Shown here one piece after another: positions 5,729 through 12,872 of a stretch of DNA of 46,551 nucleotides. A model generated the notes under the pieces. It was not told where the DNA came from. It did not search any database and was given only the letters and a program-made list of their open reading frames with translations. Positions within the stretch are counted from its first letter, which is position 1; each line of letters begins with the position of its first letter. The DNA is from Bacillota bacterium (lineage in GTDB: Bacteria > Bacillota > Bacilli > Alicyclobacillales > SLC66): positions 1-46,551 of the forward strand of contig JAJZEE010000021.1 of assembly GCA_021805735.1 (NCBI GenBank), read 5' to 3'. The translations under genes and the position numbers were made by a program.

Positions 5729-5897
5729 GCGCTGATTCCGGTGCGTCGTGGGCGGCAGGGCCCATCCGTCGAAGGTCGGTGATGATATCGCCCACTCTGA
5801 ATTCTGTGAGGCCTAGGCGTCTCGCAATCTCGTTGTAAGAGCAACGTCGCACCGTGAGCAGCGTCGCCACTTCGTGTTTGATGTCGTCCTGCGTCAT
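5700..5897 (-). CDS. Small helix-turn-helix protein
   Basis: A 65-residue ORF starting at an ATG with GGGGGAT upstream. The stretch YNEIARRLGLTEFRVGDIIT (about residues 21-40) reads as a winged-helix or MarR-like recognition unit, so DNA binding is likely. The last 20 residues (PAAHDAPESAHG onward) are low in structure and overlap the start of the next ORF. This suggests that the normal C-terminus is in the neighbouring frame and that the gene is either frameshifted or tightly overlapped. It may control the small genes downstream of it. The 267 bp between it and the divergent lipoprotein gene (5899-6165) show no gene. Confidence 0.5.
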   Translation of the reverse strand: MTQDDIKHEVATLLTVRRCSYNEIARRLGLTEFRVGDIITDLRRMGPAAHDAPESAHGVPPGSAG

Positions 5898-6165
5898 GGA
5901 CGATCCCCCGTTTCGCCTCTTACAGTATCACATGCACACATAGGGTTTCGGTGGGTCACGATCATTTTACGCGACATGGTCCGTGTGCGTTTGGCGGAGC
6001 AGCGCATGAGGTTCGATGCGTCGACCATGTTTTTCGGGGGCTGAGGAGTCCGGTACGGGGGATAGTGATGGGAAAGAGTGCAATTTCGTGCATCTCGGAC
6101 GCTTTGTAACCTCTTTGGCTGTGAATCGTCTAATTGGAGACCATGAAAGGAAGCGGTGATGTGCA

Positions 6166-6948
6166 ATGAAAGCGCAGGGGATTTTTCGCGCAGGTTCTAT
6201 CGCCATTATTGCGAGTACGGCGATCATGTTATCGGGGTGTGGAGCCACATCCGCCGCTTCATCGCAGCAATCCAGTCAGCACGTTACGGAGGCGGGGAAG
6301 ACAGTTGTGCGTAAAACTGAAGCTCTAAATACCCCCACTTTCGACGCGCGTTCTATGCTCACTTCCATACCCAAGGGGGACCATTATTTAAAGGTCACGT
6401 TTGCAGTCAAGGAAAATCGGACTTACTTTCTTAACATCGGACATCCTCTAACGGATACTGGTGCTATCGTTCCCACAACTTTTAACTTTCCGGCGAGAGG
6501 TGGTATGGTAACAGAATATATCCCCATGGGGGTGGTCTTTGATACCGTTGCAAATGGTGAGTTATTCGCTTACTTTCCTCCATCGAAATCCCGCAACGTC
6601 AACGAGAAGGCTTCTTCTGTATGGCTGCTTCTATATTCCGATTCTCCAGTGACTGTGTATGCGATGCGCAGATCCATAATACGGCCAGCCAATCTGATCA
6701 GTTGGCCGTATTATGGATCTGCAAACGTTCAAAATCGAGAAAGTTTAAGGACAGAACAGACGGCCGCCAAGACAGGATGGAAACTCTTCAAAACCATCCA
6801 TATGAACAGCAGTTTAACCGGTCTTAGGGGTGTAAATGGGCTTGTGAATCTACCGTTACACACGCCAGTCAACCTCATTAATGCTTATGGGCATGGAAAT
6901 ATTATCTTTGAAATTGATGGGATCATACCGGCATCTGCTGTACATTAG
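6166..6948 (+). CDS. Predicted lipoprotein, unknown function
   Basis: A 260-residue protein with a lipoprotein signal: positively charged start (MKAQGIFRAG), hydrophobic core and the lipobox LSGC ending at about residue 25. It should be anchored on the outside of the cytoplasmic membrane. The rest has a Ser/Gln-rich linker followed by a beta-rich domain with no motif I recognise (for example FAVKENRTYFLNIGHPLTD). Its base composition is more AT-rich than its neighbours. AAAGGAAG lies about 10 bases upstream of the ATG. It converges on the cysteine-rich gene across a shared hairpin terminator. Confidence 0.85.
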   Translation: MKAQGIFRAGSIAIIASTAIMLSGCGATSAASSQQSSQHVTEAGKTVVRKTEALNTPTFDARSMLTSIPKGDHYLKVTFAVKENRTYFLNIGHPLTDTGAIVPTTFNFPARGGMVTEYIPMGVVFDTVANGELFAYFPPSKSRNVNEKASSVWLLLYSDSPVTVYAMRRSIIRPANLISWPYYGSANVQNRESLRTEQTAAKTGWKLFKTIHMNSSLTGLRGVNGLVNLPLHTPVNLINAYGHGNIIFEIDGIIPASAVH

Positions 6949-8861: not shown

Positions 8862-9095
8862 TGACCTGGTCGAACACAGTATGTCGAACGCGTTGAACCC
8901 GCTGTACTTGGGAATGCACGATTATAGAAGTGCCTTTCCTGAATAGAGTTGGACTTTTATGCGTATAGTAGTAACTGTTCTCGCTAATCAACATGCAGCG
9001 ACTCGCGAACGGTGAGACGAAGTTGCGACATGCGACTTCTGTGGACGCATAACTGAAGGTACCGCTAAGTGAGCGGTTTAGGAGGAGCAGGAACC

Positions 9096-9296
9096 ATGCA
9101 AGAAGGCATTGTGAAGTGGTTTAACGCAGAAAAAGGCTTTGGATTCATCGAAGTACCAGGCGGGGACGATGTATTCGTACATTACAGCGCCATCCAAGGA
9201 GACGGCTACAAATCGTTGGACGAAGGCCAGCGTGTAACCTTCGAGATCGTTCGTGGCGATCGCGGTCTGCAGGCAGCCAACGTTTCGAAACTGTAA
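9096..9296 (+). CDS. csp: Cold-shock protein, CspA family
   Basis: A 66-residue single cold-shock domain. The RNA-binding motifs are intact: [14 protein letters not shown] (RNP1) and [10 protein letters not shown] (RNP2). It binds single-stranded RNA and DNA and acts as an RNA chaperone. The ATG at 9096 has AGGAGG ten bases upstream. Just before the ribosome site, ACCGCT/AGCGGT (9061-9066 and 9072-9077) can form a small hairpin in a long leader, a layout compatible with temperature-responsive translation as known for csp mRNAs; that role is inference. The gene is monocistronic and closed by a strong terminator. Confidence 0.97.
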
Positions 9297-9313
9297 GCGA
9301 TACTAGCGATCGG

Positions 9314-9344
9314 AGACCCTGGATCTATGATCCAGGGTCTTTTA
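9314..9344 (+). terminator. Intrinsic terminator after csp
   Basis: A perfect 12-bp stem (AGACCCTGGATC, loop TAT, complement to 9340) followed directly by TTTT. It is a textbook Rho-independent terminator 17 bp after the csp stop. Confidence 0.95.
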
Positions 9345-9397
9345 TGTAACGCGGGTTCCGAAGAACATACGTTCAATGACGCCATTTAAATAACGAG

Positions 9398-10105
9398 GTG
9401 GATGACGTGTCGGTGCAACTATCGCGCAAGACCATTCCATACACGCCTGTAGCAAAGTCTCTCGAGCAGATGACGATCATGATTGTATCCACCGCCGGCA
9501 TTCATTTGCGGTCGCAGGAACCGTATGACCGTGCGGGCGATGCCACGTATCGGATCATTCCCGGCGATGTTTCCGTGAAAGACCTGACAGTGACGCATGG
9601 CGCTCCCATTGAGCACTATAACTGGGAAGAGCCGCGGCGGGATCCGAACACGATCTTTCCGATCGATCGGCTGCGCGAACTGGCGGAGCAAGGATATATC
9701 GCGCAGGTCGCCGACAAGCATCTGTCCATGATGGGATATGCCATGCGGTTGAATGAGATTATGGCCGTCACCGCCCCCGAGCTTGCCAAAGAAGTGGATC
9801 GCTCGCGGGCTGACGCGGTGCTCCTCACGGCCGGGTGACCGCTCTGCCATCGAACCGTGGTCACGGTTCAACGCGCCATTGAAATGATTGGCATCCCTAC
9901 GACGCTGATCACCATCGATCCAGAGCAATCAGGCTTGATGCGTCCTTCCAGGGCCATTCACCCCGAAGGGTTTGCGTTTGGCCATTCGCTGGGCAAGCCG
10001 CATGACGCGGTCACCCAGACAGCGGTCCTTAAAGCAGCGCTGCAACGACTCATCACTCCTGGTGAACCAGGGCGCATCGAGACAGTCCAGTTCAGCAGTT
10101 ATTAG
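9398..10105 (+). CDS. Probable selenoprotein, GrdB-like (glycine/sarcosine/betaine reductase selenoprotein B family)
   Basis: One reading frame runs from ATG 9398 to TAG 10103-10105 with a single in-frame TGA at 9836-9838. Read as selenocysteine it gives 235 residues with the redox motif U147-P-L-C150 in DAVLLTAG-U-PLCHRTV. Before the TGA the protein has family hallmarks: GDATYRIIPGD, NTIFPIDRLRELAEQGYI and a following KHLSMMGY. After it, homology-like sequence continues without a break (IEMIGIPTTLITID, then GHSLGKPHDAVTQ). A SECIS-like hairpin sits at the proper distance. Downstream of the TGA there is no ribosome site for an independent gene. GrdB-type proteins carry Sec or Cys at such a U/C-x-x-C; this short form is not a complete glycine reductase subunit and its substrate is unknown. 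A plain nonsense mutation is the alternative. Automatic annotation would split it into 146- and 82-residue pieces. Confidence 0.82.
9852..9869 (+). promoter_or_regulatory. SECIS-like hairpin after the in-frame TGA
   Basis: GAACCGTG at 9852-9859 pairs with CACGGTTC at 9862-9869, which physically leaves a GGTC tetraloop on a 7-bp stem. The loop begins 20 nt after the TGA and opens with G. Bacterial SECIS elements lie inside the coding region just after UGA, with a small apical loop about 16-37 nt away and a G among its first two bases. The fit is good, but SelB binding cannot be judged by eye. Confidence 0.7.
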
Positions 10106-10589: not shown

Positions 10590-10940
10590 ATGCTGGTTTA
10601 TGTTTTGGTGCTGGTCAACGTAGTGCTTTTGGTGATCGGCCAATTGTTGTTTAAACTCGGGTTGGATCGCATTGGCGCCTTGACGCTGCATAATCTGTTT
10701 GTGGTCTTTTTGTCTCCTCTGATCTGGGCCGGTTTGGTGCTGTATGTGGTTGCAACACTGATATGGTTCTTTGTTCTGTCGCGCGCGCAGTTGAATGTGG
10801 TGTATCCGCTGCAGAGCATCTCTTATATTTTAGCGCTGGTTCTGTCAATCGTCATCTTGCATGAACAGGCGACACCGCTTCGTTGGGTGGGGACTGTCGT
10901 GATCCTGGTCGGCGTCGTCCTTGTACAGGTGCGTACCTGA
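10590..10940 (+). CDS. Small EamA/DMT-type transporter (ArnE/SMR-like)
   Basis: A 116-residue protein with four hydrophobic helices, the first being VYVLVLVNVVLLVIGQLLFK, and a late YPLQSISYILALVLSIVILHE motif typical of half-size EamA/SMR transporters. Such proteins act as dimers and export small drugs or flip lipid-linked sugars (ArnE/ArnF). The convergent neighbours encode a predicted polytopic glycosyltransferase-like protein, so a lipid-linked sugar flippase role is plausible but inferred. ATG 10590 has GGGAG nine bases upstream. The last 89 bp overlap the tail of the convergent gene. Confidence 0.85.
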   Translation: MLVYVLVLVNVVLLVIGQLLFKLGLDRIGALTLHNLFVVFLSPLIWAGLVLYVVATLIWFFVLSRAQLNVVYPLQSISYILALVLSIVILHEQATPLRWVGTVVILVGVVLVQVRT

Positions 10941-12345
10941 CCGATTGTCTGACGCCTCCGGATGTGCCTGAGAGCAGCAGGACAAAGGCCACGGCGATGA
11001 GCGGATCGACACGCATCAGATAGCGGTCAAGGCTGGATGCGTGCAGAGCCTCAAATGCCGAGAAGACGGTCATATAGGCGACGAACAGGTAGACGATCTG
11101 CGCGCAGACGAGCGCGCACAGGAAATACAGTTCGCGCCTTTTCGTCAATAACGTTGCGATCACTAGAACGATGAAAAATACGCCAATGGGATACGTATGC
11201 AGGTTGGAAATCGTAGTCCACATGGAATTCCACACCATGGTTACAAATGGCGGCTGCAGTCGGTGACTGATGGTGCTCCACGACAGGCGGGTGATCCATC
11301 CTGCCCGAGCGTGGTAGTGGTCCTTGAAGTAGGCCCAGAGGAGAGCGGGCAAGGCAGCCGCGCCTAAAGCAACCATCCAGGACATCCAGAGTCCTTTGCG
11401 AGAAGTTCCGATCCCTGCAAACCATAACAGGATCAGCGTAAAAATGGCCACGTAGGCGCCGTCCACTCGCAGGAAAGTCGAGAGGCCGAGAAACAGTCCG
11501 CACAAAGCGAGGTCGCTCCGGTTCTGTGTGCGCAACCATGCCGCGCCGTACAGAACTCCTATTACGTAGGTGTCCATGAAGGCCATCTCGCCAAAGGCAA
11601 GCCAGTTATACAGCAGGAGGGTTTCTGTGCCCCATACGGTTAACGCGATGGCCAGCAGCGCGAGAAACCGGCCGATGCGCAGGCGAATCAGCAGGCTGTA
11701 AATGGTAACCAGCGTTGCGGTCGTGAGGAGAGGAGAGATCCATTTGGCCTGCGCGATGGAGATCACCCCTATCAAATGGTAGCACCAGGCCACCAGATAT
11801 GGGAAACCAAGGGGATAACTCGCATACGCGTTGTGGAGCAGCACTGTGCTTCTGCCATCCGACAGGGTGATGAGTTTCGCCGCATACAGCCAATAAGAAT
11901 ACTCATCCCAACCAAACAGAGGTTTGGCGGCGCCCGCAGCCGTCTGATACAGAAAGATCGCGATCGCGACCGCCAGTATGACCGTGGCCACACGCGCCGG
12001 AACGGATTGCTGCCCGTGCTTGATCCCGTTCTTGCGCTCGCGTTGCGCAGGTTTTTTAGTCCGCCTCTGCCCACGCCTGCGCCACGCAGGACCTGCTTCG
12101 ACAGCGACTCCGATCGCCAGAGCCAGCAACAGGACCCCAAAAAACGCCAGACCTCCGCCGTTCGTCGCGAGTACTGGGATGCCCCAAAAGGTGTTGACGA
12201 CAAACAGCAACAGCGGCAACGCAGTGGATCCAGCGACAAATCCGGCTGCGATCCGCTCCGGAAGAGCCAGTCCGAATGGCCGCAACAGTAAAAATCCCGA
12301 TGCGGTGAGGGTGACGACAAATAGCGTCCAGCCAATCCCGATCAT
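10852..12345 (-). CDS. Polytopic membrane protein, GT39/ArnT-like glycosyltransferase
   Basis: A 497-residue protein with roughly a dozen hydrophobic helices. After two to three N-terminal helices comes a basic, Arg/Lys-rich cytoplasmic stretch, then FGWDEYSYWLYAAKLITL. An acidic Asp-Glu pair in the first extracellular loop after a helix is the hallmark of GT-C enzymes such as ArnT and PMT, which use polyprenyl-phosphate sugars. ATG 12345 overlaps the upstream stop as ATGA, so the two genes are coupled. The last 38 or so residues (from GTSGGVRQSVRYAPVQ) are antisense to the convergent transporter gene and look unlike a normal ending, perhaps read-through past a lost stop. The acceptor is unknown. 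Confidence 0.8.
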   Translation of the reverse strand: MIGIGWTLFVVTLTASGFLLLRPFGLALPERIAAGFVAGSTALPLLLFVVNTFWGIPVLATNGGGLAFFGVLLLALAIGVAVEAGPAWRRRGQRRTKKPAQRERKNGIKHGQQSVPARVATVILAVAIAIFLYQTAAGAAKPLFGWDEYSYWLYAAKLITLSDGRSTVLLHNAYASYPLGFPYLVAWCYHLIGVISIAQAKWISPLLTTATLVTIYSLLIRLRIGRFLALLAIALTVWGTETLLLYNWLAFGEMAFMDTYVIGVLYGAAWLRTQNRSDLALCGLFLGLSTFLRVDGAYVAIFTLILLWFAGIGTSRKGLWMSWMVALGAAALPALLWAYFKDHYHARAGWITRLSWSTISHRLQPPFVTMVWNSMWTTISNLHTYPIGVFFIVLVIATLLTKRRELYFLCALVCAQIVYLFVAYMTVFSAFEALHASSLDRYLMRVDPLIAVAFVLLLSGTSGGVRQSVRYAPVQGRRRPGSRQSPPNEAVSPVHAR

Positions 12346-12872
12346 GGAACCCTCACCACCAGGGACAACGCGGACGCCAGTGTTGCTCCGGTCAGGAGTT
12401 TGCGGCGATGGACGCGGTACAGGTAGAGACCGACGGCGGATGCGTGCAGCAATCGGAGAATCGCCGGGTGATCGATGGCAATCACATAACTGACGCGACG
12501 ATTCAGCATGATGCTCCGCAGCGAGGCAGCCTGTGTGAAGCGCGGAATATTCCACACATAGCCGCCCTGATTCGGGTCGCGCCATGACCAATAGTCCACG
12601 AACGACAGAGGATACAGCAAATAGCGAACGCGGTAGAAGTTATCGCCGCCGTCGATGCCATTCAGATACAACACGGTGAGTCTGGACGTAAGCGGCATAT
12701 GAGCGCGGACGAGGTTTGCGACTTGTCGCGCCTGTTTGTCTGGACGGGCGCTCTGCGCCAGGGAGCGCGCGATGGTCTGAGGCACCGTAGTAAACGATTG
12801 CCACGCCGCCGTTACGATCCACAGGCAGGTCAGCAGGATCGTAACCTTTCTGATGACTGGCCGCGTTTTCAT
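12342..12872 (-). CDS. Hypothetical membrane-anchored protein, partner of the GT39-like protein
   Basis: A 176-residue protein with one N-terminal helix (VTILLTCLWIVTAAWQSF) that acts as a signal anchor, followed by an outward soluble domain containing RLTVLYLNGIDGGDNFYRVR and VSYVIAIDHPAILRLL. A similar soluble domain is often the C-terminal part of GT-C membrane glycosyltransferases. Together with the ATGA overlap, this suggests a two-polypeptide version of one enzyme. That reading is inference. No catalytic motif is visible. Confidence 0.7.
   Translation of the reverse strand: MKTRPVIRKVTILLTCLWIVTAAWQSFTTVPQTIARSLAQSARPDKQARQVANLVRAHMPLTSRLTVLYLNGIDGGDNFYRVRYLLYPLSFVDYWSWRDPNQGGYVWNIPRFTQAASLRSIMLNRRVSYVIAIDHPAILRLLHASAVGLYLYRVHRRKLLTGATLASALSLVVRVP

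Follow-up and report, generated by a model that had tools for sequence, protein, structure and literature searches.

An orphan PrdB-like gene with an in-frame TGA predicted to encode selenocysteine in a member of the Alicyclobacillales

The window analysed here, a stretch of 46,551 nucleotides from a bacterium of the Bacillota (order Alicyclobacillales; contig JAJZEE010000021.1), contains on its plus strand a reading frame (9398-10105, stop TAG 10103-10105) that is open apart from a TGA at 9836-9838. This raises the question of whether the TGA ends a protein or is decoded as selenocysteine (Sec), and of what a full-length product would do. The first-pass annotation had described one frame interrupted solely by this TGA, with a TGA-Pro-Leu-Cys motif at the interruption, and both points are borne out on reading the frame (LTAG-U-PLCHRT). 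Judged by its sequence, the gene is close to certain to encode a selenoprotein, and its assignment as a genuine selenoprotein of an orphan PrdB-like kind is held with high confidence.

Orthologues were sought in 61 genomes, namely this one and relatives that nearly all belong to the same order. Eight full-length orthologues were found, including the gene itself, in two families of one order and with 71-99% identity to it; in addition there are one fragment that ends at a contig end and one distant paralogue (37%), the latter also with the TGA. Translation probably starts at GTG 9407, because the GTG at 9398 overlaps a sequence resembling a ribosome-binding site (GAGGTGG, 9395-9401, plus strand) and all eight orthologues have a possible start exactly 143 codons 5' of the TGA. 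GAGGTGG is the putative ribosome-binding site of the gene, with approximately 8 nt from GAGG to GTG 9407. With this start the gene (9407-10105) would encode a product of 232 residues, in which the predicted Sec is residue 144 rather than residue 147 as first annotated. Residue 147 is the cysteine (TGC 9845-9847) that partners Sec144 in a UxxC redox motif, and it is invariant across 32 aligned homologues.

The product had been called GrdB-like. This holds at the level of the GRDB superfamily (PF07355, 31.9 bits against a gathering cut-off of 22), but the nearest relative is the D-proline reductase protein PrdB, according to both the best NCBIfam match (the PrdB equivalog TIGR04483, 169.1 bits, below the curated cut-off of 300) and a tree of 32 proteins. 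In the tree, the protein and its orthologues group in a clade by themselves (100/100), for which true PrdB is the sister group (97/93); a looser UPxC group lies apart. At around 40% identity, the protein shares with PrdB its length, fold family, Sec column, the UxxC motif in an LTAGUxxCHR context and the core invariant residues; U144, C147, R156, E159, H64, D79, N81 and R182 are unchanged across the PrdB and orphan clades. It differs in having UPLC where PrdB has UGTC, and in a 4-residue insertion before Asp79 (GAPxxxYNxxEPxRD). The selenoprotein B components of glycine, sarcosine and betaine reductase (GrdB, GrdF and GrdH; PF07355, TIGR01918) belong to the same superfamily and carry Sec or Cys at the corresponding position, but they are about 435 residues long and act with GrdE, GrdA and GrdC, whereas this protein is approximately half that length and a GrdE-type partner (PF09338) is absent.

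Orphan PrdB-like selenoproteins of other Bacillota (the UPxC group, L055-L065 and L082) have the UPxC motif in common with this protein, but form separate, more distant branches with 26-36% identity. Near four distant UPxC-type loci of other Bacillota (L085, L088, L091 and L094) a MerR-type regulator is encoded, and heavy-metal ATPase-like genes were noticed by eye near two of the UPxC-type loci. No relatives were found to be encoded on viral contigs.

Also unlike PrdB, the gene stands singly, beside a cold-shock protein gene (csp), in a genome without PrdA or PrdC and in a host with haem-copper oxidases. No operon partner is present within the window, and no match to the PrdA/GrdE-type pyruvoyl protein (PF09338) was obtained in this genome or in nine relatives, in agreement with the earlier statement that the gene is not part of a glycine-reductase operon. 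The same search clearly found PF09338 in two PrdB-bearing clostridial-type genomes (G097 and G177). The electron-transfer protein PrdC (TIGR04481) likewise had no match in this genome. The assembly is a draft of 170 contigs (96.75% complete), from which a partner gene could be missing, but this is unlikely since the partner is also absent from the nine relatives.

These observations bear on the most durable of the alternatives, that the protein is a subunit of a real D-proline (or glycine-type) reductase whose diverged pyruvoyl partner is encoded elsewhere in the genome. Such a role would suit the sister relationship to PrdB and the retained core residues, but we consider it improbable given that PF09338 went unmatched in ten genomes while being readily found in clostridial-type ones, that PrdC had no match, that the PrdB score is 169 rather than 300 bits, and that there is no shared operon. 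Neither of the two partners searched for was found and the score falls short of the PrdB cut-off, so a D-proline reductase subunit appears unlikely; the absence of PrdA/GrdE (the pyruvoyl subunit) and PrdC means that the enzyme is most likely neither a D-proline nor a glycine reductase. In terms of sequence, score (below the cut-off), motif (UPLC, not UGTC) and missing partners (no PrdA/GrdE or PrdC), the interrupted gene belongs to a sister clade of PrdB and is not a true PrdB.

For the TGA to be read as Sec, the cell needs the corresponding machinery, and the check suggested in the first-pass annotation found all of it: the genome encodes SelA (592 bits), SelB (388 bits), SelD and a tRNA-Sec with the anticodon TCA (UCA in the RNA). 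There are two different selD genes (L019 and L020, on contigs C112 and C6), each with an in-frame TGA of its own, in GUGCK and GUACK motifs. A second match to tRNA-Sec proved to be a tRNA-Ser, and a second SelB-like match an EF-Tu-like protein. SelA is present in all eight genomes that carry a full-length orthologue and is above the cut-off in 30 of the 61 genomes searched (nearly all of the same order). It is also frequent in relatives without the PrdB-like gene; the Sec trait thus predates this protein or extends beyond it. The remark that Sec use is sparse in aerobic Bacilli therefore needs tempering, since aerobes make up approximately 40% of Sec-using bacteria in one survey (PMC5029168) and selA is common here. 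Our literature search brought up no publication on selenocysteine in bacteria of the Alicyclobacillus type.

Decoding of the TGA without Sec, for example by a near-cognate suppressor tRNA, would also give a full-length protein, but it has very little to recommend it beside a complete Sec machinery with a canonical tRNA-Sec, a hairpin that obeys the bacterial SECIS (bSECIS) rules, and homologues with Cys or Sec at the site. In the homologue alignment that had been proposed as a check, the TGA column holds Sec in nearly all UGTC homologues, clostridial ones included, and Cys in one.

The stem of the hairpin (9852-9869, plus strand; GAACCGU-GGUC-ACGGUUC) starts 13 nt downstream of the TGA, and its loop 20 nt downstream. 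The GGTC loop and the distance of 20 nt agree with the earlier description, but the stem has 7 bp, not 8. The published model (PMC13188914) puts the bSECIS loop at 3-9 nt, with G within its first two positions, the stem at 4-16 bp, the distance from the UGA at 16-37 nt and the minimum free energy at -7.5 kcal/mol or lower. The hairpin conforms to every one of these rules, with a 4-nt loop, a 7-bp stem, a distance of 20 nt and an energy of -9.6 kcal/mol. Its conservation was examined with 118 codons in which the amino acid is invariant among seven distinct orthologues and which are able to vary synonymously. Only 5 of these 118 codons are identical in all seven, and four of the five lie consecutively at the apex of the hairpin, a run matched by none of 20,000 permutations. 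In the second pair of the stem, A-U is replaced by C-G in one genome and by G-U in another. Over the hairpin, 100% of cells are paired. This covariation is thin (one compensatory change, matched by 66 of 500 shuffles), since the sequences differ too little. No excess folding stability of the region was seen in a single-sequence 60-nt fold (z = 0.23), and Rfam at gathering thresholds gave zero matches in the window. Support for the bSECIS thus comes from codon invariance and position within these sequences, not from folding energy; on this basis, the role of the hairpin as the bSECIS for read-through of the UGA is strongly supported.

A second start within the frame was also considered, in which the locus would make two products, one of 143 residues that stops at the TGA and one of 82 residues that begins at the in-frame GTG 9857. 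This is very improbable: GTG 9857 is part of the SECIS stem, and it has no evident ribosome-binding site, as had been noted at first for the codons after the TGA. Homologues, including the stop-free Cys homologue, align without a break through this part as the continuation of one domain, as the first reading also held. The joined protein is moreover modelled by AlphaFold2 as a single confident fold (mean pLDDT 93 for the full read-through product), in which Sec144 opens a helix (145-160) after a strand (137-141). Searches of the PDB by sequence and by fold gave no close solved structure, only generic Rossmann-like matches. The best fold match, microcystinase C (Z 8.8), is of this generic kind and was not taken as a sign of kinship; an early idea of an Asp/Glu racemase fold received no support from the fold search.

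Each of the eight orthologues has a single internal stop, and this is always TGA, down to 71% identity. On both sides of the TGA, pN/pS is below 1 in every orthologue pair; downstream it is at most 0.39, and the sequence beyond the TGA has therefore been evolving as protein-coding DNA in the frame that precedes it. By these sequence comparisons the TGA is conserved far beyond chance. A lone in-frame TGA in a draft assembly would look like a pseudogene or an error, but a recent nonsense mutation or a sequencing or assembly mistake has next to no probability: the same TGA is kept in eight orthologues from different genera and from two families, between which synonymous divergence reaches saturation at its highest. 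The coding sequence is under purifying selection before and after the TGA, and the SECIS apex is codon-invariant.

We therefore return to the reading of a single selenoprotein and its possible function. Ribosomes with SelB and Sec-tRNA-Sec would read the UGA at 9836-9838 as Sec in response to the hairpin that lies 20 nt further on, which we propose to be a bSECIS. The 232-residue product is predicted to adopt a Rossmann-like alpha/beta fold, in which Sec144 lies at a helix N-terminus and Cys147 follows after one turn. From the UxxC motif and the chemistry of PrdB and GrdB we infer that Sec144 would attack an electrophilic substrate, as is thought for the Sec of those proteins, and that Cys147 would then displace the product with formation of an Se-S bond; cellular thiols of the thioredoxin type might reset the enzyme. 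On the best reading, the protein is a stand-alone thiol-dependent selenoreductase of a small electrophile, a role for which the chances are about even. A peroxide is a rather doubtful candidate for the substrate, and another electrophile, such as an oxidised or alkylating compound, a tentative one.

This genome has haem-copper oxidase genes, as do all five carriers tested, and the host therefore probably respires oxygen. In one other genome (G031, locus L080), the PrdB-like gene lies just downstream of, and on the same strand as, a peroxiredoxin gene (AhpC/TSA; 5891-6499, minus strand) that has an in-frame TGA (6215-6217) at its peroxidatic position (TPVU). From its sequence this peroxiredoxin is likely to be a second selenoprotein, and the two genes might possibly form a two-selenoprotein operon. 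The neighbour offers a hint of thiol-peroxide chemistry, from this one genome only.

Short PrdB-type selenoproteins with UxxC are abundant in oxic waters according to sea-water surface metagenomes (PMC1088965, PMC2398784). These marine proteins are, by their description, likewise short, Sec-containing and from outside the clostridia, and may or may not belong to the clade described here. Sec-containing PrdB-like proteins outside the clostridia were thus known before (PMC1088965, PMC2398784); the present protein forms a clade separate from true PrdB. It is fairly probable that these single-gene PrdB-like proteins of oxygen-respiring Bacillota make up a selenoenzyme clade of their own, act without a pyruvoyl partner and catalyse a new Sec-dependent reduction, whose substrates might be peroxides or else electrophiles of an alkylating or metal-related kind. 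A PrdB-like enzyme would then apparently dispense with the pyruvoyl subunit that the known D-proline mechanism requires, and what a lone Sec active site does in a host with the genes for respiring oxygen becomes a focused, testable question. In standard annotation such a selenoprotein would be broken in two or truncated, and selA is common in this bacterial order.

The csp gene upstream (9096-9296, plus strand; PF00313) is a conserved neighbour that adjoins the selenoprotein gene in most genomes of the same family. Between the two genes lies a terminator-like hairpin (9313-9344, plus strand; -23.3 kcal/mol for the fold of 9306-9350), which a consensus scan did not list because its T-run is short. 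The csp leader and gene (9008-9344) resemble the cspA thermoregulator RF01766 (47.6 bits, E 5e-10), under the gathering score of 78. On the minus strand, at 10852-12591, is a 579-residue open frame with no Pfam match, which has a counterpart of 40% identity in another locus (L078).
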